A stretch of DNA of 64,000 bases. It comes from Methanofollis sp. W23. GTDB taxonomy: Archaea; Halobacteriota; Methanomicrobia; Methanomicrobiales; Methanofollaceae. The notes under the pieces were generated by a model, which worked only from the letters and a program-made list of their open reading frames with translations, ran no database searches and had not been told where the DNA came from. The stretch is taken from NCBI RefSeq assembly GCF_017875325.1, contig NZ_JAGGMN010000001.1, positions 1,818,140 through 1,882,139 of the forward strand. Reading direction: 5' to 3'. Positions within the stretch are counted from its first letter, which is position 1; each line of letters starts with the position of its first letter. The position numbers were made by a program, and so were the translations under genes. This document shows positions 13,778 to 42,829 of the stretch, piece by piece.

Positions 13778-13806
13778 GGGTTCATCCCCACGCGTGGGGG
13801 GAACAC
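13778..13806 (-). repeat. Solitary degenerate CRISPR repeat
   Basis: The 29 bases match the array-1 repeat except for a changed first base and one T-to-G in the loop (GGGTTCATCCCC...GGGGGGAACAC on the plus strand). It lies 394 bases beyond the leader-distal end of array 1, in the same orientation, with no partner repeat 61 bases away on either side. Confidence 0.7.
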
Positions 13807-13899
13807 CAGTGTCGAGTCAAGAACGAAAAGTCGTCACCACGATGCAATAGAACGAGAGGGCTCTCTCCTCGCGTGAAGAGCGGTCGTGATATTATCCTC

Positions 13900-14112
13900 T
13901 TCATGTTCTCGCCCCTCTCGTCATCCCGGGCTCAGGGGGAGCCGCGCCCCAGGGGCGAGGGCGCGGGAAGGGACGTCGATCCACGGTGCCGCCCCCACAG
14001 AAAAACGAAGACATTGTTGTCACTCTCTCGCGCTGGGGGAGACCCCCCTGACCCCTCACGATGGGGATCGGGGGGGCGGCGAGGAAGCGGCGATCCCGCT
14101 CGCGGTCCTGTC
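13900..14112. repeat. GC-rich palindromic repeats between the lone CRISPR repeat and array 1
   Basis: Two inverted GC-rich elements of the window-wide family lie here (CCCGGGCTCAGGGGGAGCC near 13926 and GGGGGAGACCCCCCTGACCCC near 14036). The rest of 13532-14199 holds no supported gene. Confidence 0.5.
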
Positions 14113-14199
14113 GTGAAGAGTGTGATCCGCGGCATCCTGGTCGGATATGTGAGTGATGACACGACACTGGTCGTCAGACGTAGAGGCGTATCGACCGAG

Positions 14200-15266
14200 C
14201 GGTTCATCCCCACGCGTGTGGGGAACACTGTTTCGTGCCGCCCGTAGAGCACTGAGAATCCGGTTCATCCCCACGCATGTGGGGAACACACGCTCGCAAT
14301 CGTCGGGTTTATTCTGTACTTCGGTTCATCCCCACGCGTGTGGGGAACACTTGAGAGTGACTCCCTTGTCGTCTGTGTTCGGCGGTTCATCCCCACGCGT
14401 GTGGGGAACACGGCAAGTCCACCTTCCTGTTAGACAGGCTGAACGGTTCATCCCCACGCGTGTGGGGAACACTGGGTGGTTTGGCTCCTCATGCACGGGG
14501 CCTCCGGTTCATCCCCACGCGTGTGGGGAACACATCCTTTTCCTCTCTAACGCACAGAGCGCGTTCGGTTCATCCCCACGCGTGTGGGGAACACGGGACC
14601 GACACCCCCATGATCACCGATCACTCCCGGTTCATCCCCACGCGTGTGGGGAACACGTCACTATCCCTAGAGTCAAGGAGATATTAGGCGGTTCATCCCC
14701 ACGCGTGTGGGGAACACTTGCTTTCTGAATCCCTTTCTGAATCCGCCATCGGTTCATCCCCACGCGTGTGGGGAACACCCGTCAGCACAGACCCTGCCCA
14801 CATCCTACGCCGGTTCATCCCCACGCGTGTGGGGAACACGCGGTCCAGTTTATCAGACGCTCCCCAGCCTCCGGTTCATCCCCACGCGTGTGGGGAACAC
14901 GATGTAGTCGTCCGGATGGTCGACGCCGGCCTCGGTTCATCCCCACGCGTGTGGGGAACACGAACTTCTCGGCTGGGGCGTCGGGACACCGTACGGTTCA
15001 TCCCCACGCGTGTGGGGAACACGGAGCGATCCAGATCGACGCGGGCGAGTCGTCCGGTTCATCCCCACGCGTGTGGGGAACACACCGCTGCGTACCCCCC
15101 GCCCCGGAGAGGGACCGGTTCATCCCCACGCGTGTGGGGAACACGAGAGTTGTTGCTGCAATTCAGGGAGGGTGGTCGGTTCATCCCCACGCGTGTGGGG
15201 AACACGCGGTTCAGAGCCCTGAGTTTCGCCTGCAGTTCGGTTCATCCCCACGCGTGTGGGGAACAC
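14200..15266 (-). CRISPR. CRISPR array 1, type I-E-like repeat, 18 repeats, leader on the right
   Basis: Eighteen 29-base repeats with 17 spacers of 32 bases (one or two of 33), beginning at 14200, 14261, 14322, 14383, 14444, 14505, 14566, 14628, 14689, 14750, 14811, 14872, 14933, 14994, 15055, 15116, 15177 and 15238. Read on the minus strand the repeat is GTGTTCCCCACACGCG...GGGGATGAACCG, the type I-E pattern with a CCCCACACGCGTGGGG hairpin. Orientation and a repeat variant at 14261 (GCATG for GCGTG) place the old end on the left and the leader on the right at 15267. All spacers differ. No cas gene is in the window. Confidence 0.98.
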
Positions 15267-16675: not shown

Positions 16676-17710
16676 ATGCGGGGGGAAGTCAATCTTGAAC
16701 GCCGGGCCATCTCTCTTCTTTCATCCGTACTGAGTCCTTCCGGTGTGTTCGACGCATACAGAAACATCAGGGGCGGCATCCAGGGCGGAGCCACCATCTA
16801 CACCTTCCACCGCGTCGGCCCCCAGCGTCACGACTGGCTCATCCCGACGATGGAGACCCCCGAGTTCGAGCAGGTGGTCAGGTGGCTGACCAGGACCCAC
16901 CGCCTCCTCCCCCTCGACGAGATCGTCGCCGCCCTCCAGGAAGGCCGGGCCCTGCCCGACGGCACCGCGGCGATCACCTTCGACGACGGCTACCAGGACA
17001 TCTACACCCACGCCTGGCCCGTGCTCCAGAACTACAAGGTGCCGGCCACGGTCTTTCTCACCACCGGCCCCATGGACCGCCGGGAACTCTTCTGGTTCGA
17101 CCGGTTCAGGCACATCATCCACACCACCGAGAAGAGGGGCTTTGAGATGGAAGGGTTTGGCAGGTTCCCGCTTCGGACCCAGACCGACAGGTTCAGGGCC
17201 GTCACCTCAATCGAGCGCTCGGTCCTCAAGGTCGCCGAGGAGGCCGAGAAACTCGCATACATCCGTGCGATCGAAGAAGACCTCGCCGTCGACCCCCCCG
17301 AGATCGGGGACGACTACATCCTCACCTGGGACCAGGTCAGGGAGATGGCCCAGGACAGCGTCACCTTCGGCTCGCACACCGTCACCCACCCGCAGCTCAC
17401 CCACCTCCCGGTCAGGCAGGCAGCGGCCGAGATCAGGGACTCGAAACGGCGAATCGAGGAAGAGACCGGGACCGAGGTCCACTTCCTCTCCTACCCCAAT
17501 GGCAGCGCCACCGACACCTCGGTCGAGGTCCAGACACTGGTCAAGGAGGCCGGGTACCTCTCGGCCTTCTGCGGGGTGCCCGGGCAGGTGAGGGCCGGGG
17601 CCAACCCCTTCATGCTCAACCGGGTCTTCTCTGGCTGGGACTTCGACACCTTCAAGTTCTTCGGTTCAGGGGCGTTTGCCGATCTTGCCAGGTTCCATTT
17701 CAGGCGGTGA
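16676..17710 (+). CDS. Polysaccharide deacetylase (NodB/carbohydrate esterase 4 family)
   Basis: 344 residues. The NodB homology domain has motif 1 TFDDGY (Asp103, Asp104), motif 2 SHTVTH (His234, His238) as metal ligands, and a later SYPNG motif. Members remove N- or O-acetyl groups from amino-sugar polymers or lipid-linked sugars. There is no signal peptide, so action on a cytoplasmic or membrane-surface glycan intermediate is more likely than secretion. About 100 residues between motifs 1 and 2 (140-220) are longer than in minimal NodB. The acyltransferase gene starts 5 bases after its stop; the two almost certainly work together. Confidence 0.93.
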   Translation: MRGEVNLERRAISLLSSVLSPSGVFDAYRNIRGGIQGGATIYTFHRVGPQRHDWLIPTMETPEFEQVVRWLTRTHRLLPLDEIVAALQEGRALPDGTAAITFDDGYQDIYTHAWPVLQNYKVPATVFLTTGPMDRRELFWFDRFRHIIHTTEKRGFEMEGFGRFPLRTQTDRFRAVTSIERSVLKVAEEAEKLAYIRAIEEDLAVDPPEIGDDYILTWDQVREMAQDSVTFGSHTVTHPQLTHLPVRQAAAEIRDSKRRIEEETGTEVHFLSYPNGSATDTSVEVQTLVKEAGYLSAFCGVPGQVRAGANPFMLNRVFSGWDFDTFKFFGSGAFADLARFHFRR

Positions 17711-17715
17711 TTAGT

Positions 17716-18804
17716 ATGAAGATGAAGGTGCGGACCATCAACACCGACGAGTATGAAGGCCTTGCGGCCTTCCTTGCAACGCAGGTCGAGACCGACCCGG
17801 CCGAACTCTGGCTGAGCAGGTTTGGCATGTGGTGGGAGAACAACCCCGCCATGGCCGAAGGGATCCCGCGGGGATGGGTGATCGAGGACGACGAGCACGA
17901 GATCGCCGGGTTCCTCGGCAACATCCCGGTGCCCTTCTGGGTCGACGGCCACCTCGCTCTCGCCCGTGCCGCCTCCTCCTGGTATGTCCGCCCCGAGGTG
18001 CGGGGGGTGCTCGGGCTCCAGCTCAACATCGCCTACTCGCGCCAGAAGGACGCCGACCTCTTTATCAGGACGACCCCGAACGAACTGGTCCAGGCGATGC
18101 TCCCGCGTCTGGGGTTCGAACGGGCCGCCTTCCCGGTCGGCGGCCGGGAATATCTGTGCGTCCGCGACTATGGCGGGGCGGCGGCGCTGTACGGTGCAAG
18201 TCCGGGGACCGGCGGGACAAAACGGGCGCTCACCTCCCTTGCCCGCGGCCCGCTCACCGCAGTCTCGCCGCTCCTCCTGCGCCACCGTGCCGGAGGCGGG
18301 CCCGAGGCCGCCGCCGGTGCATGGGAGGTCTGCACCAGGTGCGGGCGAGAGTTCACCGCCTGCTGGGAAGAGTTCAGGCGGCCGGGCACCGCCTCGGTCG
18401 CCCGCGACGCACAGACCCTGGAATGGCTCTACTTCTCAGAGCCCGTCGCCGGGAAACGGACCGTCGTGGCGTGCCGGGACAAAGATGGCGAACTCGCCGG
18501 CTACTGCGCCTTCGACCTGCTCACCCCGTACGGCGCCGGGGTGCAGGTGCTCATCCTCCGCGACGCCTTCCTCCCTGACCGTGCGACTGCCAGGACCGCC
18601 GTCGCCGCAGGGAAGGCGCTGGCCGAGGAGAAGGACGCCGCCACCGTTGCGTTCTGGCCGGCCTCGCGCAGGATGGAGGAGGTGCTCAAGGCCGAGGCCA
18701 CCACCTCCAGGCAGACCGACTACGGGTATTTCTACCGCTGGGGCCGGGCCGGACCGGCGGTGCTGCTCCCCTCGACCGTCGACCCTGACCGCGGGACGCT
18801 GTAG
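17716..18804 (+). CDS. GNAT-like acyltransferase, probably tandem domain
   Basis: 362 residues from ATG 17716, placed behind GGTGATTAGT; a GTG at 17707 would overlap the deacetylase stop. The first half has a GNAT pattern: WVIEDDEHEIAGFLGNIPV, a strand then VRPEVRGVLGLQLNIAYSR (acyl-CoA or carrier pyrophosphate loop region) and PNELVQAMLPRLGF. The second half (about 205-350) repeats the theme with a CTRCG pair and DGELAGYCAFDLL. NodA, which N-acylates deacetylated sugars from a carrier protein, is also GNAT-fold; the substrate here is inferred from neighbours. Its last 73 bases overlap the 3' end of the convergent acyl ligase gene. Confidence 0.75.
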   Translation: MKMKVRTINTDEYEGLAAFLATQVETDPAELWLSRFGMWWENNPAMAEGIPRGWVIEDDEHEIAGFLGNIPVPFWVDGHLALARAASSWYVRPEVRGVLGLQLNIAYSRQKDADLFIRTTPNELVQAMLPRLGFERAAFPVGGREYLCVRDYGGAAALYGASPGTGGTKRALTSLARGPLTAVSPLLLRHRAGGGPEAAAGAWEVCTRCGREFTACWEEFRRPGTASVARDAQTLEWLYFSEPVAGKRTVVACRDKDGELAGYCAFDLLTPYGAGVQVLILRDAFLPDRATARTAVAAGKALAEEKDAATVAFWPASRRMEEVLKAEATTSRQTDYGYFYRWGRAGPAVLLPSTVDPDRGTL

Positions 18805-20300
18805 CCCTGCACCTCGTCCCCGGCCTTGAGGGCGGCGACCACATGGTGGAGCCTGACCAGGTCCAGTTTGTCTGAGGCGTTGAGCGGCATGGCCTGCGCA
18901 AAGACCACGGCCCTGGGGACCTTGTACGACGGGAGGGAGGCGCGGCAGAGGCTCATGATCTCGTCGTGAAGCGCGGCCGAGGGGTCGCGGACCGGTTGGA
19001 CGACGGCCACCGCCGCCTCGCCCATGAGGGTGTCCTGGACGGCGACGACCGCGGTCTCGCTCACCCCGGCATGAGTGTTGATGAGGTCTTCGACCTCGCG
19101 GGGGGTGATCCGGTGTCCGGCCGACTTGATGACCGTGTTGTCCCGGCCTTTGAAATAGATGTAGCCGTCTTCGTCGACGGTGCCGAGGTCGCCGGTGTAG
19201 AGCCTGCCGTTTCGCAGTTTTGCGGCGGTGGCCTCGGGGTCCTTGAAGTAGCCCTGCATCAGGGTCGGGCCGAGCACGGTGATCTCGCCGACCTCGCCGG
19301 GCGCCACGGGCCGGTCGTCTGGGCCGAGGACTTCGAGGCTGACGCCTGGCATCCCCTTGCCAAGCGACCCGATCTTTTCGTGGAGGAGGGCGGGGTCGAG
19401 GATCGAGATCCGTGCCGTCGCCTCGGTGGCGCCGTAATAGATGTAGAGATCTTTGGCAGGGAAGGTCTCGGTGATCGTCCTGACATATTTCTCGTCGAGG
19501 TGCCCGCCGCCGCAGGTCATGTAGCGCAGGCTCGGGAGGGCGCTCGTGAGGAAGGGGGTGCGGTGGATGAGGATCTGGTAGGTGCTCGGCACGCCGTAGA
19601 TCCCGGTGCACCCGTAGCCCTCGATCTCGGGGATGACGGTGCCAAGGAAGATCGAGGTGTGCAGGACCAGGCTCCCGCCGACCCTGAGGTGGGTGTGGAG
19701 GACCGAGACCCCGTAGCAGTAGGTGAAGGGCAGGACGGCGCAGGCGCGGTCGGCGTCGGTGAGGCGCATCACGGCGAGGATCGCTTCAGAGTTGGTGATG
19801 AGGTGGCGGTGCGGGATCATCACGCCTTTTTTCTCGCCGGTGCTCCCTGAGGTAAAGAGGATCTGGGCGGTCTCGTCGGCGTCGGTCTCGTCCACCCATG
19901 CCTCGTCGGTGGGACGAAGGGCGACGAGGGCGGCAAGGTCGGCCTCAGAGAAGACCGGCCACTCCTCGCCGAGTTTGGGCCTGAACTTCTCCTGGACGCA
20001 GCAGCAGGAAAATTCGCAGAGGGCGCCGATCTTTGCGAGTTGGTCCTGTGCGACCCTGGTCTCGACGAGCACGGCGATGTTCCCGCTTTTCATGGCGGCG
20101 AGGTAGCAGAGAGTGAAGTAGAGGCTGTTCTCGGCGAGGACGAGGATCCGGTTCCCCTGTCCGTAGGTCTCTCCGAAGTGTCTGGCAAGGGCGTTCACCT
20201 GCCAGAAGAGGTCACGGTGGGTGATCGTCTCCTTCGGCCCGGCAAGAAAGAGGGTGTCACGCTCCCTGGTGTGCTCGAAGAGGTAGTCGACGAAGTTCAT
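18732..20300 (-). CDS. AMP-forming acyl ligase / acyl-CoA synthetase-like adenylating enzyme
   Basis: 522 residues from ATG 20300. The ANL-superfamily motifs are complete: phosphate loop ILFTSGSTGEKKGV (147-160), YYGATEATARIS, LYTGDLGTVDEDGYIYFKGR, the hinge and SAGHRITPREVE, and a C-terminal lysine in LNASDKLDL that catalyses adenylation. It activates a carboxylic acid as acyl-AMP and passes it to a thiol. Because the ACP gene overlaps it by 4 bases (ATGA), the acceptor is probably that carrier. An open frame extends far upstream but covers the ACP and AcpS genes. The final 24 codons lie opposite the end of the GNAT gene. Confidence 0.92.
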   Translation of the reverse strand: MNFVDYLFEHTRERDTLFLAGPKETITHRDLFWQVNALARHFGETYGQGNRILVLAENSLYFTLCYLAAMKSGNIAVLVETRVAQDQLAKIGALCEFSCCCVQEKFRPKLGEEWPVFSEADLAALVALRPTDEAWVDETDADETAQILFTSGSTGEKKGVMIPHRHLITNSEAILAVMRLTDADRACAVLPFTYCYGVSVLHTHLRVGGSLVLHTSIFLGTVIPEIEGYGCTGIYGVPSTYQILIHRTPFLTSALPSLRYMTCGGGHLDEKYVRTITETFPAKDLYIYYGATEATARISILDPALLHEKIGSLGKGMPGVSLEVLGPDDRPVAPGEVGEITVLGPTLMQGYFKDPEATAAKLRNGRLYTGDLGTVDEDGYIYFKGRDNTVIKSAGHRITPREVEDLINTHAGVSETAVVAVQDTLMGEAAVAVVQPVRDPSAALHDEIMSLCRASLPSYKVPRAVVFAQAMPLNASDKLDLVRLHHVVAALKAGDEVQGYSVPRSGSTVEGSSTAGPARPQR

Positions 20301-20548
20301 ACCGCCCCCTCCTCCAGGTGGGAGAAGACGACGGCCCTGACCTTGCCGAAGTCTTCCATCTCGACGATCTCGTCCATGTCCAGGGTGATCCCGAAGGCCT
20401 CCTCGAGGGCGGCCACGAGTTCGAGGTGTTTGAGCGAGTCCCAGAGTTCGTGGGTGTTGTACCCGATCTCGTCGGTGAGGTCTGAGGCTCGAACGCCGAT
20501 GATCTCGCAGAAGATTTTTTCTATTCTTTGATGTGGTCCTTTTTCCAT
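20297..20548 (-). CDS. Acyl carrier protein
   Basis: 83 residues, normal ACP size and acidic. The phosphopantetheine attachment serine is Ser38 in ELWDSLKHLELVAALEE, and a GITLDMDEI helix follows. Carrier proteins are uncommon in archaea, which make isoprenoid lipids, so this one likely serves a specialised pathway and not fatty acid synthesis. It overlaps acpS by 28 bases upstream and the ligase by 4 bases downstream. Confidence 0.93.
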   Translation of the reverse strand: MEKGPHQRIEKIFCEIIGVRASDLTDEIGYNTHELWDSLKHLELVAALEEAFGITLDMDEIVEMEDFGKVRAVVFSHLEEGAV

Positions 20549-20913
20549 CCGTCCCCCTCCATCGCGACTGCGCAGGCGACCGCGATGTCCCCGTCGTGCG
20601 AGAGGCTGACAAGGACAGTGACCATACTGGCATTGGGGGATATTAAGGTAACGGACGGCACCCCTGACGGGGTGTTTGTGATCTCGATTTTGTTCATCGC
20701 AAGGCGGTCAAAACCGATGGAAGAGAGGGCTTTGGTGACGGCCTCTTTCCCGGCGAACCTGGCGGCGAGGTGGGGGGCGGGGTCTCCTCGCGAGAAGCAG
20801 GCGGCGAGTTCGGCCGGGGTGAAGACTCGTTCCAGGAAGTGACGGTCGTGGTCGAGGGTCTTTCCTTTGAATCGGGTGATCACGACGACGTCGGTCCCGA
20901 TGCCTGGTATCAT
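20521..20913 (-). CDS. acpS: Holo-[acyl-carrier-protein] synthase (phosphopantetheinyl transferase)
   Basis: 130 residues from ATG 20913. AcpS motifs are present: GIGTDVV with Mg ligand Asp8, and ARFAGKEAVTKAL with Glu57. It moves 4'-phosphopantetheine from CoA to Ser38 of the adjacent carrier. The ending DGWKKDHIKE overlaps the ACP start. The order acpS-ACP-ligase is a self-contained unit for making, charging and loading one carrier. The upstream frame extension to 21021 lacks family residues. Confidence 0.92.
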   Translation of the reverse strand: MIPGIGTDVVVITRFKGKTLDHDRHFLERVFTPAELAACFSRGDPAPHLAARFAGKEAVTKALSSIGFDRLAMNKIEITNTPSGVPSVTLISPNASMVTVLVSLSHDGDIAVACAVAMEGDGWKKDHIKE

Positions 20914-26016: not shown

Positions 26017-27936
26017 GTGTTCCCCACACGCGTGGGGATGAACCGCCGGACGGGTCGCGCCTCAGGGGAGATATCCAGTGTTCCCCACACGCGTGGGGAT
26101 GAACCGGAATCTCATCGAGACGCGGGAGGTGAGCGACGGTGTTCCCCACACGCGTGGGGATGAACCGATCACCGACGCCGAACGAGAGCGCCGGGTCGAG
26201 TGTTCCCCACACGCGTGGGGATGAACCGCCAGAGGTCCCCCCGAGCGCAGGACGGAAAGAGTGTTCCCCACACGCGTGGGGATGAACCGTCGTCAGTGAG
26301 GAGGTCGAAATAGCCGCTTCCGTGTTCCCCACACGCGTGGGGATGAACCGGTGCATCGCCGGTGCGGTGGTCAGCGTGAGGAGTGTTCCCCACACGCGTG
26401 GGGATGAACCGAGCTCCTCGCAGACTCTCCTATCTCAATTTTCGTGTTCCCCACACGCGTGGGGATGAACCGGGGCTTACGCAAACACCATAATTCACCT
26501 CAACGTGTTCCCCACACGCGTGGGGATGAACCGTCGCTTCAGTGTTCGGCCAGGTGATCGCCCCCGTGTTCCCCACACGCGTGGGGATGAACCGCAGGCG
26601 TACGGCAAATATCTGGATCGCATCAACGTGTTCCCCACACGCGTGGGGATGAACCGACAGTGCCTTTGTGTTGGCCCGTTGTATGGGCGTGTTCCCCACA
26701 CGCGTGGGGATGAACCGAACTATTCCGAGGTCTGACCCCGTACGTGACGGTGTTCCCCACACGCGTGGGGATGAACCGTCAAACGAGGCGCCGCAGTGCG
26801 GACAGGTCAGGTGTTCCCCACACGCGTGGGGATGAACCGGGTATCTTGGTCGCACGCTGACGCCGGGGGAAGTGTTCCCCACACGCGTGGGGATGAACCG
26901 ACATCAGGCGTCACGATGTCGTGCGACGACGCGTGTTCCCCACACGCGTGGGGATGAACCTGGGGCTCCCGCAGGTCGGGCCGCCCTCACGAGGTGTTCC
27001 CCACACGCGTGGGGATGAACCGATCCTCTAGAAAGTTCTCGACAGGGTTCTGCGGTGTTCCCCACACGCGTGGGGATGAACCGCTAATCCCCCCCGCATT
27101 GCCTGCACCGTCTCCGTGTTCCCCACACGCGTGGGGATGAACCGTGCGCGAAATGGATTGAGTTCCCGTTCGGGAAGTGTTCCCCACACGCGTGGGGATG
27201 AACCGCAGGCGCGGCGAAACCAGGCGACAAATGCTCTGTGTTCCCCACACGCGTGGGGATGAACCGAACATCATCGCTCCAGGGAAGGGCTATGCGTTGT
27301 GTTCCCCACACGCGTGGGGATGAACCGGGGACGTGTGGGATCGGTGGGTGGACCCTATAGTGTTCCCCACACGCGTGGGGATGAACCGTTCAGGCGCACG
27401 TCAATCCCATGCTCCGACGCGTGTTCCCCACACGCGTGGGGATGAACCGTTCAGGCGCACGTCAATCCCATGCTCCGACGCGTGTTCCCCACACGCGTGG
27501 GGATGAACCGACGTCCCGCTTCTCTACCAGATCCCGGCTCAAGTGTTCCCCACACGCGTGGGGATGAACCGACCAAAATTTCGTATCACGCTCTTGCGTC
27601 GCTGTGTTCCCCACACGCGTGGGGATGAACCGGTATCAGGGCGAACTCATCACGAAGGAGGAAGGTGTTCCCCACACGCGTGGGGATGAACCGATTCGCG
27701 GCATCTCAGGACTCCGTAACCTCATGTGTTCCCCACACGCGTGGGGATGAACCGAACACATCTCCCTCGTCGCCAGGGGTGAACCCGTGTTCCCCACACG
27801 CGTGGGGATGAACCGCCTCATCGCCCCCTTCGTATCGTTTGGGTGGCGTGTTCCCCACACGCGTGGGGATGAACCACCCCTCTCCACCTCGCCGCCCATG
27901 ACGTGAAGTGCTCCCCACACACGAGGAGAGAACCCA
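26017..27936 (+). CRISPR. CRISPR array 2, type I-E-like repeat, 31 repeats plus a decayed last one
   Basis: Thirty-one 29-base repeats start at 26017 and recur every 61 bases (62 at two points) to 27848-27876, with mostly 32-base spacers. The repeat is the same as in array 1. Variants: the repeat at 26933 ends in T, and the one at 27848 ends in A. A strongly decayed copy follows at 27908-27936 (GTGCTCCCCACACACGAGG). Decay on the right and a leader on the left show rightward transcription. One spacer occurs twice in a row (27389-27420 and 27450-27481). No cas genes are nearby. Confidence 0.98.
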
Positions 27937-29861: not shown

Positions 29862-32800
29862 TTATCTCCTCCTCCACACCACCATGCCGACGACGAAGAG
29901 GGCGACCGCCGCGGCAACGACAAGCACCATCATGAGGAAGGGAGGTTCGGTCCCGGCGGGCGTCGGGCCCGCCGCCGGCGGGGACGGCGTGATCGGTGCC
30001 GGTGTCTCGACCGGTGCGCCAGGGGTCATCACCGGGGTCTCGACCGGCGAGGGGTCGCCGCCGATCGCAAAGAGCGAGAAGCCCGCACTCTTTGCCGAGA
30101 AGTGCCAGAAGGTCTCGTCCTCCCTGACGACCTCGTTCGGAAGGGCCTGCCACTCGTCGTCGTGATACCGGTACAGCACCACGTCGGCGGGTGTGAGACC
30201 GTGCTCTTCGAGCCACGTCTTCGGGACTTTGAAGAGGAGGAGGGCGCCCTCGATCGCATCCTCGGTCGTGTGATAGAGCGTCACCTCGTCGTACTCGTAG
30301 ACCGTGCCGGCCGGCGCCTCGACGCCTGAAGGCCGGGCCGTCTTCCCGATAGTGACCATGACCTTCGGGATCGTCTCCGCGGCCGTCACCCGCACCTCAT
30401 AGATGGCCGAGTCATGGAGCACGAGCGAGGCGGTGTCGCCGGCCAGGATCGTTCCTGCCGACCCGGCCGAGGTAGTCGAACCGCCGCCGGATGAGGGCGA
30501 ACTCCTGCCGCCGGGTCCGGGCGTCGAGACCACAACACTCTGCTCGGCGGTCGACGAACCGTAGGCATTGGAGACGGTCAACTGCACGGTGTAGGTGCCG
30601 CCCCGCTCGTAGCGGTGGGTGGGAGAGGGATCGGTCGACGTGGCCCCGTCGCCGAAGTCCCATGACCATGCGGTGATGTCCCCGGTCGAGGTGTCGGTGA
30701 AGCCGACGTCCAGCGGGGCGTTGCCTTCACGGGGTGAGAGGTCGAAGGCGGCGACAGGCGGGGCGAGGACGGTGACCGTCCTGGTGGTGGCGTTGGTGAC
30801 CTCGCCGGTGCTCACCGTGAGCGTGATCGGGTAGGTGCCCGGGGTATCGTAGGTGACGCTCCGGTTGATCTCGGCCGGGCTCGTGCCATTCACCTGCCGG
30901 CCGTCGCCGAGGTCGAGGTCCCACCTTTCGGGCGTACCGCCGCTGCTGACATTGACGTCGAGGGTGAAGGGTGCGTTGCCCTCGGTGGCGGAGAGGATGA
31001 GGAGCGGTTCAGACATGCCGACGACGATCTCGACCGTGCGGACGAGAGTGACAAGGTCGCTCGTCTCCCCCCATGCGGCGGTCAGGGTGGCGGTGTACGT
31101 CCCGGCCTTCTCATAGACATGGGACGGCCCGGGGCACGGGTTCGATTCGTCGCCGTCGCCGAACGTCCAGACGAGACGGTCGGGCCAGGGATCCGTACAC
31201 TCGGTGTCGAAGGAGACGTTGAGGGGTGCAGGGCCCTGCCTGGGCGCGGCATAGCCCTCAATGTCGACCTCGTTGACCTCGACGGTCACCCGCTCGGTGG
31301 TGCCGGCCAGGAGGTCGACCGACGCCCGCCCATAGGTCATCGGCCCGACGATCTCGATGGTGTGGGTGCCCGCGGGGATGAAGAAGGCATCAGAAGGCGG
31401 GGTGGGATCGTCGGCCCTCACCACCGCACGGGGTACGGGCGCGAACGAGTCGGCGGTCCGGGTGGTGTTCACCCCGTCGACGTACACGAACCCGCCGTAC
31501 GCCGAGGCGCGGATCAGCGCCGTGCCGCGGTTCCCGCCGTCCACCAGCGGGAGTTCGTCGGTGCCGAAGCCGGTGATGGTCAGGGTCTCGTCGCAGATAC
31601 CGTCGCAGTCGACGTCGGCGCCCCACTCAGAGAGGTTCTGGTCGGTGCCGTTGAGCCAGAGGTTGCCGCCCAGATACGGCCCACCCGCGATGGTGGTGCC
31701 GGGGGCGTAGGTGCCGTTGAGGGCGGCGGCGGTGGATTCATACGCATAGATGTTGGTGGGGTTGTCGAGGCGGCAGTTGACGATGGTGGCGTTGTGGGAC
31801 TCGTTGAAGTATGCCCCGCCACCGCCTTCGTCTGCGGTGTTGCCGGTGAGAGCGGTGGTGGTGAGCGTGGCGTTCGGGGAACTCATGAAGTATGCCCCGC
31901 CGCCTTCGTCTGCGGTGTTGCCGGTGAAGGTGGCGTTGGTGAGCGTGGCGTTCGGGGAACTCATGAAGTATGCCCCGCCGCCTTCGTCTGCGGTGTTGCC
32001 GGTGAGAGCGGTGCCGGTGAGCGTGGCGTTCCGGGACTTGTAGATGAATGCCCCGCCGCCGAACTCCGTGGCGTTGTTGCCGGTGAGAGCGGTGCCGGTG
32101 AGCGTAGCGGCATCGCATATGTAGATGAATGCCCCGCCGCCGTATTGACCTGCCTTGTTGTCGGCGAAGGTGGTGTTGGTGTACACAGCGTTAATGGAGA
32201 AGATGAAGAATGCGCCGCCGCCGTATTGACTTGCCTTGTTGTCGGTGAAGGTGGTGTTGGTGAGCGTGGCGTCCTCGGAATACCAGAAGCATGCCCCGCC
32301 ACCGTAGGGTGCGGTGTTGTTGATGAAGGTGATGGCGGTGAGTGCGGCGTCTTCGCATGAATAGAACTCTGCCCCGCCGCCGTTGTAGGTTGCGCTGTTG
32401 TTGGCGAAGGCGGTGGTGGTGAGCGTGGGATTCTGGCAGTTATTGAAGTAGGCGCCGCCGCCGTGGTTGGATGCGGTGTTGTCGGTGAACACCGCCCCTT
32501 CCACCAGGAGGTCGTCGACGTACCAGGCAGAGAGGGCCCCGCCGGCTTGATCCGCCATGTTCCCGTCAAAGGTGCAGTCGGCGATGGTGAGGTGCTGTAA
32601 GTGGGATTCATAGGCGCCACTGGCGTTGATAGCGGCGCCTTTGCCGTTCAACTGGTTCCGCGAGATGTTGAGGTCGCGGAACGTGGCGTTGTCGGCGGTG
32701 ACGCTGAACGCCGGCGTGGTGCCGGAGATGTTGGTGATGAGCGGCTGGACGGGCGATCCCTCCCAGCGCTTGACCGTCACGTTGGGGGCGTCGATGACGG

Positions 32801-35800
32801 TCCCGCTATCGTACGCGTGCCCGGCCACGCCCCAGATATGGACGGTGTCGCCCGCGCCGAGGTCGGGGATATCAAGGAGACTGGTGAGGTTCTCGCCGCC
32901 GACGACCTTCGAGATGTACCAGTCGGTCGGATGCTCGACGGGCTCTGTGAGGGTGAAGGAGAGAGGATCGTTCTCGCCCGGGACGATGGCGACCTCCTTC
33001 ACTTCAGAGGAGACCCCATCCTTCTGCACAAAGACCGTGCGGTTCCCGACCGGGAGGTAGAAGGTGCGGTTCGCGGTGCGGGTGGTGTTCGTGTCGTCGA
33101 CGAAGACGAAAGCATCGGAAGGCGTGGCGTTGATCTGCACCGTCCCGCCGTATATGAGCGGGAGGGCGTCGGTGCCGAAGCCGGTGATGGTCAGGGTCTC
33201 GTCGCAGATGCCGTCAAAGTCGGCGTCGGCGCCCCACTCGGAGATGTTCTGGGCGGTGTCGTTGAGCCAGAGGTTGCCGCCGAGGTTCGGCCCGCCCGCG
33301 ATGTTGGTGCCGGGGGCGTAGGTGCCGTTGAGGGCGGCGGCGGTGGAACTCTTTGCATAGATGTTGGTCGGGTTGTCGAAGCGGCAGTTGGTGACGGTGG
33401 CGTTCTTAGAGTCCCTGAAACTTGCGCCGCCGCCGTTGGTCGCGGTGTTGCCGGTGAGAGTGGTGGTGGTGAGCGTGGCGTTCGTGGAATCGTAGAAGTA
33501 TGCCCCGCCACCGCCGTCGGTCGCCGTGTTGTCGGTGAAGGTGGTGGTGGTGAGCAAGGCGTTCGTGCACCAAAAGAAGTGGGCCCCGCCGCCGAACCTG
33601 TCTGCGGCGTTGTTGTTGAAGGAGGTGCTGGCGAGGGTGGGCGCAGTGCAGGAGACGAAGTATGCCCCGCCGCCGCAACCGTCTTTTGCGGTGTTGCCGG
33701 TGAACGTCGCCCCCTCGACCAGGATATCGTCGACGAACTCGGCATAGAGCGCACCGCCGTGTGCATTTTTCCCTTCAACCGCGTTCCCGGTGAAGGTGCA
33801 GTTCGTGATGGCGAGACGCTTTAAGTGGGATTCATAGGCCCCCCTGGCGTTGATCCCGGCGCCGTCATCATAATTAGATCTCAGCCGGTTTCGAGAGATA
33901 TTGAGGTCGAGGAAGGTGGTGTTGTCCGCGTTCACGGTGAACGCCGGTGCGGTGTAGGGAGCGCTGGTGATGAGCGGCTGGACGGGCGATCCCTCCCACC
34001 GCGTGACCGTCACGTTCGATGCGTTGATGACGACTCCGCCCTCGTACGTATGCCCGGCCACGCCCCAGACATGGACGGTGTCGCCCTCGCCGAGGTCAGG
34101 GATATCAAGGAGACTGGTGAGGTTCTCGTCGCCGCCGACCTTCGAGACGTACCAGTCGGTCGGGTGTTCGACACTCTGGTTGAGGTCGAAGGAGAGAGGA
34201 TCGTTCTCGCCCGGGGCGATGGTGACCCGCTTCGTGGCAGAGGAGACTCCGTCCTTCTGCACCGAGACCGTGTGGTTCCCGACCCGGAGGTAGAAGGTGC
34301 GGTTCGCGGTGCGGGTGGTGTTGGTGTCGTCGACGAAGACGAAGGCGCCGTCGGCGGAAGGCGTGGCGTTGATCTGCACCGTCCCGCCATATATGAGCGG
34401 GAGGTGGTCGGTGCCGAAGAGGCTGTTGTCGCTGTTGTTGATGGTCAGGTTCTCATCGCAGATGCCGTCGAAGTCGGCGTCGGTGCCCCACTCCGAGATG
34501 TTCTGGGCGGTGTCGTTGAGCCAGAGGTTGCCGCCGAGGAAGGGGCCGCCCGCGATGGTGGTGCCGGGGGCGTAGGTGCCGTTGAGGGCGGCGGCGGTGG
34601 AATCATACGCATAGATGTTGGTGGGGTTGTCGAAGCGGCAGTTGGTGAGCGTGGCGTTCGTGGAATCGTAGAAGTATGCCCCGCCGCCGCCGTCGGTCGC
34701 GGTGTTGCCGGTGAGGGCGGTGCCGGTGAGCAAGGCGTTCGTGCACATCCCGAAGTATGCCCCGCCGCCGTATCGTGCGGTGTTGCCGGCAAGGGTGGTG
34801 CCGGTGAACGTGGGATTCTGGCAGTTATCGAAGCATGCCCCGCCGCCGCACCCGCTTTCCGCGGTGTTGCCGGTGACGGTGGCGTTAGTGAGCGTAACGC
34901 CGTCGGAACCCATGAAATCTGCCCCGCCGCCGTTGTAGGTTGCGCTGTTGTCGGCAAGGGTGATGTCGGTGAACGTGGCGGCATTGCAGTTCTCGATGCT
35001 TGCCCCGCCGCCGAATTCCGCGGTGTTGCCGGTGAATCCTGTTCCCTCGACCAAGAGGTTGTCGGTGGCCTGGACGAAGAGGCCGCCGCCGAACTGTGCG
35101 GTGTTGTCGGCAAGGGTGGTGCCGGGGAGCGTGGCGGCAGTGCAGTACCGGATGCATGCCCCGCCACCGTAGTCTGCGGTGTTGTCGGCGAACGTCGTCC
35201 CCTCCACCAGGAGGTCGGCGACGAACCTGGCATAGAGCGCACCGCCTTCTGTACCGGTCCCGTTCACGGCGTTCCCGGTGAAGGTGCAGTTCGTGATGGT
35301 GAGACGCTGTAAGGGATCATCATAAGTCCCTACGGCGTTGATCCCGGCGCCGCTGCTTCTATCAAAGTCCAGGCGGTTCCGCGAGATGTTGAGGTCGAGG
35401 AAGGTGGTGTTGTCCGCGTTCACGCTGAACGCCGGGGCGGTGGTGCTGGCGCTGGTGATGAGCGGCTGGACGGGCGAGCCCTCCCAGCGTTTCACGGTGA
35501 CGTTCGATGCGTTGATGACGACTCCGCCCTCGTACGTATGCCCGGCCACGCCCCAGACATGGACGGTGTCGCCCGCGCCGAGGTCGGGGATCTCCAGGAG
35601 ACTGGTGAGGTTCTCGTCGCCGCCGACCTTCGAGACGTACCAGTCGGTCGGATGCTCGACAGGTTCTCTGAGGGCAAAGGTGAGGGGATCGTTCTCGCCC
35701 GGGACGATGGCGACCTCCTTCACTTCAGAGGAGACTCCGTCCTTCTGCACCGAGACCGTGTGCCCCCCGACCTTGAGGTAGAAGGTGCGGTTCGCGGTGC

Positions 35801-38800
35801 GGGTGGTGTTCGTGTCGTCGACGAAGACGAAGGCGTCGGCGGGCGTGGCGTTGATCTGCACCGTCCCGCCGTACACGAGCGGGAGGGCGTCGGTGCCGAA
35901 GCCGGTGATGGTCAGCGCCTGGTCGCAGATGCCGTCAAAGTCGGCGTCCGCGCCCCATTCGGAGATGTTCTGGGCGGTGTCGTTGAGCCAGAGGTTGCCG
36001 CCGAGGTACGGCCCGCCCGCGATGGTGGTGCCGGGGGCGTAGGTGCCGTTGAGGACGGCGGTGGATCCGCGTGCATAGATGTTGGTGGGGTTGTCGAAGC
36101 GGCAGTTGGTGATGGTAGTGGCATCGCAGTCATAGAACAATGCCCCGCCGCCGCCGTCGTCTGCGGTGTTGCCGGTGAAGGTGGTGGCGGTGAGCGTAGC
36201 GGCATCGCAGTTGTAGATGTATGCCCCGCCGCCCCAGTGATCTGCGGTGTTGCCGGTGAAGGTGGCGTTGGTGAGCGTGGCGTTGTGGGAGTCCCAGAAG
36301 AATACGCCGCCACCCCTGTCTGCAGTGTTGCCGGTGAACTTCGTTCCCGCCACCAGGAAGTCGTTGACGTACCTGGCAGAGAGCGCACCGCCGGATATGG
36401 ATGTCCCTTTCACTTCGTTCCCGGTGAAGGTGCAGTCGGTGACAGTGAGGCGCTTCAGGGGGGTATTTTCATTTTTTCCGGCGGCGTTGATCCCGGCGCC
36501 GTACTTGTTGTTCAACCGGTTCCGTGAGATGTTGAGGTCGCGGAAGGTGGCGTTGTCGGCGGTGACGCTGAACGCCGACACGCCGGAGGTGCTGGTGATG
36601 AGCGGCTGGACGGGCGAACCTTCCCACCGCGTGACCGTCACATCTGATGCGTTGATGACGACCCCGCCCTCGTACGTATGCCCGGCCACGCCCCAGACAT
36701 GGACGGTGTCACCCGCGCCGAGGTCGGGGATATCAAGGAGACTGGTGAGGTTCTCGCCGCCGCCGACCTTCGAGACGTACCAGTCGGTCGGGTGTTCGAC
36801 ACTCTGGTTGAGGTCGAAGGAGAGAGGGTCGTTCTCGCCCGGGACGATGTCGACCTCCTTCACTTCAGAGGAGACCCCGTCCTTCTGCACAAAGACCGTG
36901 CGGTTCCCGACCCGGAGGTAGAAGGTGCGGTTCGCGGTGCGGGTGGTGTTGGTGTCGTCGACGAAGACGAAGACGTCGGCGGGGGTGGCGTTGATCTGCA
37001 CCGTGCCGCCGCCGCACTTCAGCGGGAGGGCGTCGGTGCCGAAGCCGGTGATGGTCAGGGTCTCGTCGCAGATGCCGTCAAAGTCGGCGTCCGCGCCCCA
37101 CTCGGAGATGTTCTGGGCGGGATCCTGGAGCCAGAGGTTGCCGCCGAGGTTCGGCCCGCCCGCGATGTTGGTGCCGGGGGCGTAGGTGCCGTTGAGGGCG
37201 GCGGCGGTGGAACTCTTTGCATAGATGTTGGTCGGGTTGTCGAAGCGGCAGTTGGTGATCGTGGCGTTGTAGAACTCTTCGAAGTATGCCCCGCCGCCGT
37301 CGGTCGCCGTGTTGCCGGTGAAGGTGGCGTTGGTGAGCGTGACGAAATCGGAGTCGAAGAACAATACCCCGCCGCCGTACACCGTGGCGTTGTTGTCGGT
37401 GAAGGGGGTGCCGGTGAGCATGGCGACATCGCAGGTATCGAAAAATGCCCCGCCGCCGTAGTTCGCACCGTTGTCGGTGAAGGTGGTGCCGGGGAGCGTG
37501 GCGTTCATGCACCCCGAGACGTATGCCCCACCGCCGCGGGTTGCGGTGTTGGAGGTGAATTTTGTGCCGGGGAGCGTGGCGGGATAGCAGTCGTAGAAGT
37601 ATGCCCCGCCGCCGTCATTGTCTGCGGTGTTGCCGGTGAAGGTGACGTTGGTGATCGTGGCGGCAGTGCAGTATAGGATGCATGCCCCGCCGCCGTCCTC
37701 GTCTGCGCGGTTGCCGGTGAACGTCGTCCCCTCCACCAGGAGGTCGTCGACGTACCGGGCATGGAGCGCACCGCCGCATGTAAATTGCCCGTTCACTTCG
37801 TTCCCGGCAAAGGTGCAGTCGGTGATGGTGAGGCGCTTCAGGTGGTTTCCTGGATTCCCGACGACGTTGATCCCGGCGCCGTTGCCGTTCAACTGGTTCC
37901 GTGAGATGTTGAGGTCGCGGAACGTGGCGTTGTCCGCCTTCACGGTGAGGGTGAAGGCCGACGTGGTGTTGCTGGCGCTGGTGATGAGCGGCTGCACCGG
38001 CGAGCCTTCCCACCGCGTGACCGTCACATCTGATGCGTTGATGACGACCCCGCCCTCGTACGTATGCCCGGCCACGCCCCAGACATGGACGGTGTCGCCC
38101 GCACCGAGGTCGGTGATCTCTAGGAGACTGGTGAGGTTCTCGTCACCCCTGATCGTCGAGACGTACCAGTCCATCGGATGGTTGATCTCTCTGAGATCGA
38201 AGGTGAGGGGGTCGTTCTCGCCGGCGGTGACGTTGACGTCCTGCTCACCGGTGAAGAAACCCTCCTTCTGCACCGAGACCGTGTGGTTCCCGACCGGGAG
38301 GTAGAAGGTGCGGTTCGCGGTGCGGGTGGTGTTGGTGTCGTCGACGAAGACGAAGGCGCCGTCGGCGGAAGGCGTGGCGTTGATCTGCACCGTCCCGCCG
38401 CCGCACTTCAGCGGGAGGTGGTCGGTGCCGAAGTAGGTGGTGAAGCCGGTGATGGTCAGGTTCTCGTCGCAGATGCCGTCGAAGTCGGCGTCCGCGCCCC
38501 ACTCCGAGATGTTATGGGCGGGATCCTGGAGCCAGAGGTTGCCGCCGAGGTACGGCCCGCCCGCGATGTTGGTGCCAGGAGTACGGGTGGTGTTGAAGAC
38601 GGCGTCGGAATTATACATATAGAGATTTATGGGGTTGTCGAAGCGGCAGTTGGTGACGGTGGCGGCATTGCAGGAATTGAAAAGTACCCCGCCGCCATTC
38701 TTGTTGGCGGTGTTGTCGGTGAAGATGGTGCCGGTGAGCGTGGCGGCATCGCAGCCGTAGAAATATGCGCCGCCGCCGTACTCCGTGGCGTTGTTGTCGG

Positions 38801-40553
38801 TGAAGGTGGTGCCGGTGAGCGCGGCGTTCGGGGAACTCATGAAGTATGCCCCGCCGCCGTTGGCCGCGGTGTTGTCGGTGAAGGTGGCGTTGGTGAGCAC
38901 GGCATCACGGGAACCGCTGAATCCGACGCCGCCACCATTTGACGCATGGTTCCTGGTGAAGGTGGTGTCGGCGAGCGTGGCGGCATTGCAGTTCTCGAAG
39001 TATGCGCCGCCGTACCTGTCTGCGTTGTTGCCGGTGAAGGTGGTGCCGGGGAGCGTGGCGGCATCGCACCGCCCGAAGTACGCCCCGCCGCCGTACCTGT
39101 CTGCGTTGTTGCCGGTGAAGGTGGTGCCGGGGAGCGTGGGATTCTGGCATTTATCGAAGTATGCCCCGCCGCCGAACTCCGTGGCGTTGTTGTCGGTGAA
39201 GGTGGTGCCGGTGAGCGAGGGGTTGTTGGAACTCATGAAGTATGCCCCGCCGCCGTTGTGTGCGGTGTTGTCGGTGAAGGTGGCGTTGGTGAGCACGGCA
39301 TCATGGGAACCGCTGAATCCGACGCCGCCACCGTAATCTGCATCATTCCTGGTGAAGGTGGTGTCGGCGAGCGTGGCGGCCTCGCAATTCACGAGATACG
39401 CACCGCCGCCGTAATCTGCATCATTCTCGGTGAAGGTGACGCCGGTGAGCGTGGTATTATCGCACTCGTAGAACCCGACGCCGCCGCCATTTGTCGCATG
39501 ATTCCTGGTGAAGGTGGTGTTGGCGAGCGTGATGTTGCGACAGTACCCGAACGACGCCCCGCCATTGTAGGGCCAGGCAGTGTTGTTGGTGAACGTCGTC
39601 CCCTCTATCAAGAGGTCGTCGATGTACTGACCACGGAGCGCACCGCCGGCATTTTCACCCGCACCGCTCACCTTGTTCCCGACAAAGGTGCAGTTCGTGA
39701 TGGTGAGGCGCTTCAGGTGGTTATTATCATTTTCTCCGACGGCGTTGATAGCGGCGCCGTTCCCGTTAAACTGGTTATCAGAGATGTTGAGGTCGAAGAA
39801 CGTGGCGTTGTCCGCCTTCACGGTGAACGCCGGGGCGGTGGTGCGGGCGCTGGTGATGAGCGGCTGGACGGGCGAACCTTCCCAGCGTTTCACGGTGACG
39901 TCGGGAGCGTTGATGACGGTCCCGCCCTCGTACGTATGCCCGGCCGCGCCCCAGACATGGACGGTGTCGCCCGCGCCGAGGTCGGGGATATCAAGGAGAC
40001 GGGTGACATTTGTATACCCCTGGGGGTTGCCGGTGCCCGGCACCGGGGAGACGTACCAGTCCCTCGGGTGAGTGCCCGCAGGGGGGTCAGGGGGGTCGGC
40101 CATGACGACCGGTGGCGGGGCGGTGACGTGCTCCTCCGCGACGATCTCGACCGAAGAGGCGTTCGTGACGGACGCACTCTCGTTGACCGCAGTGAGGCCG
40201 ACGACGTGGGTGCCGGGCGTGTGGAACGTGTGGGTGAAGATCGATTCGTTCTCGTCGGCCGCGACGACGCCGTCGACCGTCCACTCCCAGAGGTCGACCG
40301 CGAGGCCCGCGGCCGCGCCGGTGAACCTGACCGTGAGCGGCACCGGGCCGGCGGGCGGTTCGGCGGCGAGCGCGAGGGTGAACGCCGGAGCCGAGGTGTT
40401 CGTGATGTTCGCAGGCAGTTCAGGTGGCGCACGAGTTTCAAGCGGCCCTGCGTCTTTTTCGCCGCCGGCGACCGGCAGGACAAAACAGATCAGGACAGTG
40501 AGTAGAACGATGAAAAGAGTTACATTTTTCCGGGAGGGGGGATTTTTGTTCAT
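29862..40553 (-). CDS. Giant modular surface protein: beta-helix/PEGA repeats, PKD domains, C-terminal anchor
   Basis: 3,563 residues from ATG 40553, behind GGAGGT. A signal peptide (about 1-31, LFIVLLTVLICFVLPVAGG) is followed by a PKD-like domain (about 52-135). Six modules then begin near residues 166, 794, 1254, 1634, 2131 and 2543. Each opens with DWYVS...GDTVHVWGVAGHTYEGG, runs through parallel beta-helix repeats of the kind FTGNTA..GGGAYF, ends with NLWL...WGADADFDGICD, and carries a PEGA-like VQINATP..AFVFVDDTNTTR. Three PKD domains (about 3100-3335), a PGF-pre-PGF-like domain (about 3375-3502) and a final membrane helix with RRR complete it. It is expected on the cell surface, probably in adhesion or envelope structure. 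Many N-x-T sites suggest heavy glycosylation. Confidence 0.93.
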   Translation of the reverse strand: MNKNPPSRKNVTLFIVLLTVLICFVLPVAGGEKDAGPLETRAPPELPANITNTSAPAFTLALAAEPPAGPVPLTVRFTGAAAGLAVDLWEWTVDGVVAADENESIFTHTFHTPGTHVVGLTAVNESASVTNASSVEIVAEEHVTAPPPVVMADPPDPPAGTHPRDWYVSPVPGTGNPQGYTNVTRLLDIPDLGAGDTVHVWGAAGHTYEGGTVINAPDVTVKRWEGSPVQPLITSARTTAPAFTVKADNATFFDLNISDNQFNGNGAAINAVGENDNNHLKRLTITNCTFVGNKVSGAGENAGGALRGQYIDDLLIEGTTFTNNTAWPYNGGASFGYCRNITLANTTFTRNHATNGGGVGFYECDNTTLTGVTFTENDADYGGGAYLVNCEAATLADTTFTRNDADYGGGVGFSGSHDAVLTNATFTDNTAHNGGGAYFMSSNNPSLTGTTFTDNNATEFGGGAYFDKCQNPTLPGTTFTGNNADRYGGGAYFGRCDAATLPGTTFTGNNADRYGGAYFENCNAATLADTTFTRNHASNGGGVGFSGSRDAVLTNATFTDNTAANGGGAYFMSSPNAALTGTTFTDNNATEYGGGAYFYGCDAATLTGTIFTDNTANKNGGGVLFNSCNAATVTNCRFDNPINLYMYNSDAVFNTTRTPGTNIAGGPYLGGNLWLQDPAHNISEWGADADFDGICDENLTITGFTTYFGTDHLPLKCGGGTVQINATPSADGAFVFVDDTNTTRTANRTFYLPVGNHTVSVQKEGFFTGEQDVNVTAGENDPLTFDLREINHPMDWYVSTIRGDENLTSLLEITDLGAGDTVHVWGVAGHTYEGGVVINASDVTVTRWEGSPVQPLITSASNTTSAFTLTVKADNATFRDLNISRNQLNGNGAGINVVGNPGNHLKRLTITDCTFAGNEVNGQFTCGGALHARYVDDLLVEGTTFTGNRADEDGGGACILYCTAATITNVTFTGNTADNDGGGAYFYDCYPATLPGTKFTSNTATRGGGAYVSGCMNATLPGTTFTDNGANYGGGAFFDTCDVAMLTGTPFTDNNATVYGGGVLFFDSDFVTLTNATFTGNTATDGGGAYFEEFYNATITNCRFDNPTNIYAKSSTAAALNGTYAPGTNIAGGPNLGGNLWLQDPAQNISEWGADADFDGICDETLTITGFGTDALPLKCGGGTVQINATPADVFVFVDDTNTTRTANRTFYLRVGNRTVFVQKDGVSSEVKEVDIVPGENDPLSFDLNQSVEHPTDWYVSKVGGGENLTSLLDIPDLGAGDTVHVWGVAGHTYEGGVVINASDVTVTRWEGSPVQPLITSTSGVSAFSVTADNATFRDLNISRNRLNNKYGAGINAAGKNENTPLKRLTVTDCTFTGNEVKGTSISGGALSARYVNDFLVAGTKFTGNTADRGGGVFFWDSHNATLTNATFTGNTADHWGGGAYIYNCDAATLTATTFTGNTADDGGGGALFYDCDATTITNCRFDNPTNIYARGSTAVLNGTYAPGTTIAGGPYLGGNLWLNDTAQNISEWGADADFDGICDQALTITGFGTDALPLVYGGTVQINATPADAFVFVDDTNTTRTANRTFYLKVGGHTVSVQKDGVSSEVKEVAIVPGENDPLTFALREPVEHPTDWYVSKVGGDENLTSLLEIPDLGAGDTVHVWGVAGHTYEGGVVINASNVTVKRWEGSPVQPLITSASTTAPAFSVNADNTTFLDLNISRNRLDFDRSSGAGINAVGTYDDPLQRLTITNCTFTGNAVNGTGTEGGALYARFVADLLVEGTTFADNTADYGGGACIRYCTAATLPGTTLADNTAQFGGGLFVQATDNLLVEGTGFTGNTAEFGGGASIENCNAATFTDITLADNSATYNGGGADFMGSDGVTLTNATVTGNTAESGCGGGACFDNCQNPTFTGTTLAGNTARYGGGAYFGMCTNALLTGTALTGNTATDGGGGAYFYDSTNATLTNCRFDNPTNIYAYDSTAAALNGTYAPGTTIAGGPFLGGNLWLNDTAQNISEWGTDADFDGICDENLTINNSDNSLFGTDHLPLIYGGTVQINATPSADGAFVFVDDTNTTRTANRTFYLRVGNHTVSVQKDGVSSATKRVTIAPGENDPLSFDLNQSVEHPTDWYVSKVGGDENLTSLLDIPDLGEGDTVHVWGVAGHTYEGGVVINASNVTVTRWEGSPVQPLITSAPYTAPAFTVNADNTTFLDLNISRNRLRSNYDDGAGINARGAYESHLKRLAITNCTFTGNAVEGKNAHGGALYAEFVDDILVEGATFTGNTAKDGCGGGAYFVSCTAPTLASTSFNNNAADRFGGGAHFFWCTNALLTTTTFTDNTATDGGGGAYFYDSTNATLTTTTLTGNTATNGGGASFRDSKNATVTNCRFDNPTNIYAKSSTAAALNGTYAPGTNIAGGPNLGGNLWLNDTAQNISEWGADADFDGICDETLTITGFGTDALPLIYGGTVQINATPSDAFVFVDDTNTTRTANRTFYLPVGNRTVFVQKDGVSSEVKEVAIVPGENDPLSFTLTEPVEHPTDWYISKVVGGENLTSLLDIPDLGAGDTVHIWGVAGHAYDSGTVIDAPNVTVKRWEGSPVQPLITNISGTTPAFSVTADNATFRDLNISRNQLNGKGAAINASGAYESHLQHLTIADCTFDGNMADQAGGALSAWYVDDLLVEGAVFTDNTASNHGGGAYFNNCQNPTLTTTAFANNSATYNGGGAEFYSCEDAALTAITFINNTAPYGGGACFWYSEDATLTNTTFTDNKASQYGGGAFFIFSINAVYTNTTFADNKAGQYGGGAFIYICDAATLTGTALTGNNATEFGGGAFIYKSRNATLTGTALTGNTADEGGGAYFMSSPNATLTNATFTGNTADEGGGAYFMSSPNATLTTTALTGNTADEGGGGAYFNESHNATIVNCRLDNPTNIYAYESTAAALNGTYAPGTTIAGGPYLGGNLWLNGTDQNLSEWGADVDCDGICDETLTITGFGTDELPLVDGGNRGTALIRASAYGGFVYVDGVNTTRTADSFAPVPRAVVRADDPTPPSDAFFIPAGTHTIEIVGPMTYGRASVDLLAGTTERVTVEVNEVDIEGYAAPRQGPAPLNVSFDTECTDPWPDRLVWTFGDGDESNPCPGPSHVYEKAGTYTATLTAAWGETSDLVTLVRTVEIVVGMSEPLLILSATEGNAPFTLDVNVSSGGTPERWDLDLGDGRQVNGTSPAEINRSVTYDTPGTYPITLTVSTGEVTNATTRTVTVLAPPVAAFDLSPREGNAPLDVGFTDTSTGDITAWSWDFGDGATSTDPSPTHRYERGGTYTVQLTVSNAYGSSTAEQSVVVSTPGPGGRSSPSSGGGSTTSAGSAGTILAGDTASLVLHDSAIYEVRVTAAETIPKVMVTIGKTARPSGVEAPAGTVYEYDEVTLYHTTEDAIEGALLLFKVPKTWLEEHGLTPADVVLYRYHDDEWQALPNEVVREDETFWHFSAKSAGFSLFAIGGDPSPVETPVMTPGAPVETPAPITPSPPAAGPTPAGTEPPFLMMVLVVAAAVALFVVGMVVWRRR

Positions 40554-40650
40554 TTCAGACCTCCTCAAGAACCAAACGCGAGCCTCATCAGGTATGAGGC
40601 AAGGAAGTTCCTGTCGAAGCGTTAAGATTCGCGAAATTTAATTCTATGAC

Positions 40651-42606: not shown

Positions 42607-42700
42607 TTCAGACCTCCTCGACAACTGAAAACCAGCGTCGCCAGGGATGGCGGGGACGCCGTTCCCGTCGATATGGTGAGATTCGCGGAAATGGATTTTG

Positions 42701-42712
42701 ATATTTATATAT
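42701..42712 (-). promoter_or_regulatory. TATA box of the one-module surface-protein gene
   Basis: ATATATAAATAT on the minus strand, about 100 bases before ATG 42606, followed by CCGCGAATCTC as in the paralogous promoter at 40651. Confidence 0.55.
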
Positions 42713-42829
42713 TTTTTTGATTTTCGTCGGGCCGTCATGACAGGATCAGAGAGCGCATTGATCTCCTGGTATCGGGCCTGAAGAGATTCACGGGCGTCGA
42801 TGGCCATGGAATGAACGGCATGCGAGGGG

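Follow-up and report, generated by a model that had tools for sequence, protein, structure and literature searches.

What does an archaeon do with an acyl carrier protein (ACP) that is encoded together with an activating enzyme, a loading enzyme, a polysaccharide deacetylase and a GNAT-type transferase? This question is raised by a locus of Methanofollis sp. W23, located in a stretch of 64,000 nucleotides that is referred to here as the window. Carrier-based decoration of sugars is known mainly from bacteria and is unexpected in archaea, where such carriers are rare. A review from 2012 described ACPs and their machinery in only a few unrelated archaea, as acquired from bacteria, and treated them for fatty-acid synthesis only (PMC3533463). 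The locus (16676-20913) consists of five intact open reading frames in two convergent units. The plus-strand unit encodes a CE4 deacetylase and the GNAT-type transferase; AcpS, the ACP and an AMP-forming ligase make up the unit on the minus strand:

16676..17710, plus strand: CE4 polysaccharide (N-)deacetylase, 344 aa (PF01522, 92.5 bits; motifs TFDDG at residue 101 and SHTVTH at residue 233)
17707..18804, plus strand: GNAT-type transferase, probably tandem, of an unclassified family, 365 aa from GTG (Pfam matches of sister proteins; fold of the C half)
18732..20300, minus strand: AMP-forming acyl ligase, 522 aa, ATG at 20300 (PF00501, 203.7 bits; PF13193, 58.9 bits)
20297..20548, minus strand: acyl carrier protein, 83 aa (PF00550, 29.8 bits; Asp-Ser-Leu at Ser38)
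20521..20913, minus strand: AcpS-type phosphopantetheinyl transferase, 130 aa (PF01648, 61.4 bits; TIGR00516, 67.8 bits, above the cut-off of 59.8)

The sequence-only reading of this stretch had described five genes in two tightly coupled, convergent units, and this layout is confirmed: all frames are open, and the same five genes are found in the same order in three further genomes, with 77-93% identity. The GTG at which the GNAT frame opens overlaps with the stop codon of the deacetylase gene, but alignment with sister proteins makes an ATG at 17716 or 17722 the likelier start. Overlaps of 4 nt (ligase and ACP) and 28 nt (ACP and AcpS) are found in the minus unit. Between the two units there is also a tail-to-tail overlap of 73 nt (18732-18804), not mentioned in the sequence-only reading. 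The C-terminal motif PSxxDxDxGxL of the GNAT protein lies in this overlap and is kept as far as the deltaproteobacterial homologue, while the conserved core of the ligase stops near residue 490, so that the ligase tail encoded there, beyond the last conserved domain, is probably dispensable for the ligase.

AcpS, which carries the motif FAGKEAVTKAL, would, judging from family and motif, put phosphopantetheine on Ser38 of the ACP (codon 20435-20437), and the Asp-Ser pair is invariant across 15 aligned archaeal carriers. The best partial matches of the deacetylase among curated models are PgaB and IcaB, far under their cut-offs; its family suggests that it would act on an N-acetylated sugar, in a precursor or a lipid-linked glycan, and so expose an amine. 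By hydropathy, none of the five proteins has a clear membrane span (the maximum over 19 residues is 0.81 for the deacetylase, with no obvious span), which would place the acylation step in the cytoplasm, probably before export.

The ligase displays the ATP-binding motifs (LFTSGSTG, YYGATEA and YTGDLG), as well as a C-terminal Lys in NASDK. Its best solved relatives by score are adenylation domains of non-ribosomal peptide synthetases (NRPS), and beta-aminoacyl-ACP synthetases also match. In NRPS adenylation domains, an Asp binds the alpha-amino group of the substrate; at the aligned position, the window ligase has a Cys, and the ligases of the flippase-type loci described below a Thr. This replacement makes an acyl group likelier than an alpha-amino acid, and the substrate is thus probably a carboxylic acid other than an alpha-amino acid, which the ligase, as gene order and motif suggest, would adenylate and load onto the ACP.

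The transferase itself matches no Pfam family, even at an E-value of 1. Sister members weakly match GNAT domains in the N half (PF13527 in 6/11 members; PF00583 at E 1e-4), and structure prediction, which had been proposed as a check, succeeded for the other half: in the AlphaFold model of the whole protein (6 sequences; mean pLDDT 52.5), the C half alone is usable and aligns to GNAT structures with Z up to 8.4, whereas the N half, modelled alone, reached a pLDDT of 38.4 and its fold was not modelled with confidence. The protein can hence be called GNAT-type, from the fold of its C half and the weak matches of its sisters, and apparently belongs to an unclassified tandem-GNAT family. Its alignment shows conserved W, N and P residues in addition to the C-terminal motif, and the CoA-binding motif of the N-terminal half, judged by eye from this alignment, is RGVLGLQL, without the glycine pattern that is usual there. 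Eis2 and ICL2 came out on top in Foldseek, but with TM values below 0.25, and were rejected as evidence of kinship.

The C half also aligns to FemA (Z 8.1), one among many GNATs. Together with the NRPS-like and beta-aminoacyl-ACP synthetase-like matches of the ligase, this could fit a FemABX- or Dlt-like aminoacyl decoration, in which the ligase would load an alpha- or beta-amino acid and a FemAB-like double GNAT would transfer it to a glycan. This scenario appears quite unlikely to us: the alpha-amino-binding Asp is Cys or Thr in these ligases, even if beta-amino acids are still compatible with such a change, and the family scan returned no FemAB match in Pfam or NCBIfam. Of the acyl or aminoacyl decoration initially considered, the acyl version is therefore retained and the alpha-aminoacyl version disfavoured by the Asp-to-Cys replacement.

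The distribution of the genes bears on whether the two units work together. The whole block is present in 4/12 genomes of the genus (the window genome, G000, and G001, G004 and G005), and no orthologs of the deacetylase, GNAT and ligase were found in the other eight; G006 carries an ACP, but inside a LuxE-LuxC cassette. The five-gene block is thus gained or lost as a unit within the genus. It adjoins ftsZ, and apart from the block G004 and G005 show conservation of this site. In G005 (L058 8842-10360), the GNAT and ligase genes are about 1.5 kb apart, whereas they overlap or are separated by a short gap in the other three genomes.

The surroundings of the locus show some further features. A CRISPR array lies on either side of it (13779-15266, 19 matches, and 26017-27875, 31 matches); the 28-nt repeat is the same in both, in opposite orientations. 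A MoeA-MoeA-SLOG block that they enclose is inverted compared with G004 and G005, possibly through recombination between the arrays. Further on, a 3568-aa open frame on the minus strand (29862-40568), whose product is perhaps a large surface protein, adjoins a gene for a beta-helix (NosD-like) protein (41008-42984).

In a phylum-wide sample of 393 genomes, the GNAT family was found in 10 and an ACP in 41, and no GNAT genome lacked an ACP (10/10; hypergeometric 5e-11 by genome and 1.3e-6 by genus, with kinship only partly removed). In the phylum of the bacterial homologue, the GNAT family was found in just 2/369 genomes. GNAT and ACP genes are neighbours in five different kinds of locus, the first being that of the window. 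The second, referred to as flippase-type (L062, L079), has the order flippase-GNAT-ligase-PPTase, towards which an ACP-PP-loop pair converges; in such loci there is a 4-nt overlap between GNAT and ligase genes, and the ACP gene, which was not found in the flippase-GNAT gap of L062, L078 or L079, lies in L062 and L079 in convergent orientation about 3 kb further on. The third (L065) reads AcpS-ACP-ligase-LuxE-LuxC-SDR-TkN-TkC-GNAT, and the fourth (L096) consists of GNAT-NAD synthase divergent from ACP-PP-loop. The fifth comes from a bacterium (L081), with a GNAT-ACP-FkbH row and a deacetylase in the same cluster, ACP and FkbH being assigned there from motifs by eye, the latter with no Pfam support.

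A looser arrangement is seen in four genomes of another archaeal family, where deacetylase and GNAT genes are adjacent or one or two genes apart, and an ACP module of the order PPTase-ACP-ligase-WbuX-like-NAD synthase-SDR lies in another part of the genome, at a distance of about 11 kb in G514 and far from the GNAT gene in G280, G317 and G442. A module of this composition (PPTase, ACP, AMP ligase, WbuX-like amidotransferase, NAD synthase, often SDR), a second archaeal type of carrier module, is found in L103-L106, L121 and L122. The GNAT frame of G442 (L085, G442:C8:159340-160455) is split by an in-frame TAG, which may be due to decay or to a sequencing error, or may encode pyrrolysine if TAG is read in that way in this family of methanogens.

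According to the sequence-only reading, genomes with one unit alone as a rule would have spoken against a joint pathway. The units stay together within the genus and GNAT and ACP co-occur throughout the sample, but trio (AcpS, ACP and ligase) and deacetylase-GNAT pair part outside the genus, which speaks in part against such a pathway. This separation is what would be expected if the units were independent, with the GNAT re-acetylating the deacetylated sugar or acylating it from CoA and the trio making something else; tandem GNATs such as Eis2, first in Foldseek with a very weak alignment, indeed use acetyl-CoA. We nevertheless regard such independence as unlikely, given the ACP in every GNAT genome, the GNAT/ligase overlap in flippase-type loci and the bacterial GNAT-ACP-FkbH row.

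The trio has a wider distribution of its own. Within the order, at least 10 loci contain AcpS-ACP-ligase with LuxE, LuxC and, in most of them, SDR downstream, in some cases accompanied by two transketolase halves; outside the genus, it usually occurs with LuxE-LuxC-SDR and without GNAT. In L061, L071 and L072, it is preceded by genes for two LpxD-like hexapeptide transferases and a protein weakly similar to the deacetylase VimE. G005 holds both a window-type and a LuxE-LuxC locus, which argues for two systems sharing a common kind of loading trio. The GNAT-linked ligases of the window and flippase types cluster apart from the LuxE-linked ones in a tree, with a support of 89/94, less than the tree tool itself counts as strong; the L065 ligase is distant and falls outside the window/flippase-type group.

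A set comprising ACP, AMP ligase, LuxE, LuxC and FabG has been described in flagellin glycosylation islands of Enterobacteriaceae (PMC4875605) and of Aeromonas group II (PMC7874193), where a liposugar was inferred as the product, so that function is likewise only inferred in these bacteria. The archaeal relatives of the window trio match the full set. The window shares the ACP and the AMP-dependent ligase with it, but lacks LuxE, LuxC and the reductase, and adds its own AcpS, the CE4 deacetylase and the GNAT-type transferase. LuxE was not found anywhere in G000, nor LuxC at the window locus. Fatty-acid or polyketide synthesis was also considered as a user of the ACP and rejected: the one ketoacyl-synthase-family match in G000 is weak (about 52/252 positions, in a 393-aa frame) and probably corresponds to a thiolase-type enzyme, and all control archaea match this profile too. 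Neither a LuxE route nor a classical fatty-acid synthase is thus seen to use the ACP in this genome.

The LuxE-LuxC partners found elsewhere imply an acyl reduction step, and the annotated neighbours within the window include neither a glycosyltransferase nor a flippase. It could hence be argued that the trio serves a small molecule or a lipid tail unrelated to glycans, which the GNAT would acylate. This we find quite unlikely, as the partner enzyme is a CE4 deacetylase, the same cassette occurs in the bacterial flagellin glycosylation islands, and relatives are associated with LpxD-like hexapeptide transferases, a VimE-like deacetylase and WbuX-like amidotransferases, relatives of the GNAT in particular sitting beside flippase and glycosyltransferase-like genes. 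The link of the window locus to glycans is drawn from these relatives and from the deacetylase family.

Several better-known systems follow a similar logic. In rhizobia, NodB and NodA form a deacetylase-acyltransferase pair that uses a carrier-bound donor, a logic also proposed for the window. The likeness is one of analogy only, however: the deacetylase misses the NodB equivalog TIGR04243 (30.3 bits, cut-off 240), no NodA match was found for the GNAT protein or its sisters in Pfam and NCBIfam, and the label "Nod-factor-like" given earlier to the gene set has to be understood in that restricted sense. The similarity initially noted with exosortase-linked exopolysaccharide loci (XrtA) does not extend to membership either. 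A deacetylase, a ligase and a transferase of similar size are common to both, and TIGR03098 is the second-best NCBIfam model for the window ligase, but the XrtA models stay under their cut-offs (TIGR03098, 275.7 of 592.35 bits; TIGR03006 for the deacetylase, 14.2 of 276.2 bits), there is no FemAB-type match, and the exosortase/archaeosortase family PF09721 is absent from G000 and four relatives, while the control M. jannaschii matches. LpxD transfers an ACP-borne acyl group to an amino sugar, and LpxD-like proteins adjoin the trio in relatives; LpxD is nonetheless a hexapeptide-repeat enzyme and not a GNAT, and none was found beside the window genes. Literature searches returned nothing on GNAT and ACP with O-antigen, FkbH and ACP with O-antigen, or exosortase and ACP.

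Altogether, gene families, gene order and GNAT/ACP co-occurrence support a carrier that has an activator and a loader of its own and is linked to a deacetylase and a GNAT-type transferase. We consider it fairly probable, on grounds of sequence comparison, that the five genes form a cytoplasmic carrier-protein-dependent acylation module for a sugar. The tandem-GNAT would move the acyl group from the carrier to the amine freed by the deacetylase or, less likely, to a hydroxyl. This role is suggested by three features: the transferase is associated with carrier genes, it is paired with deacetylases, and its CoA-binding motif is degenerate. As a system of carrier-dependent sugar acylation, the module would stand apart from the bacterial islands in its use of a GNAT-type transferase and a CE4 deacetylase.

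More tentatively, and with less confidence than for the module itself, the tandem-GNATs may constitute a new family that draws acyl groups only from carriers and, in archaea and some bacteria, transfers them to amino sugars. The loading modules (AcpS-ACP-ligase, PPTase-ACP-ligase-amidotransferase or ACP-FkbH) would then be interchangeable and supply different acyl groups. If this is true, most ACPs in these methanogens would serve glycan decoration rather than fatty-acid synthesis. An ACP is present in 41/393 genomes of a single phylum, and those examined lie in modules with ligases and glycan-type enzymes, some of them with this unnamed GNAT family. This gives archaeal ACPs a concrete role that can be put to the test, and suggests that methanogens contain acylated sugars.
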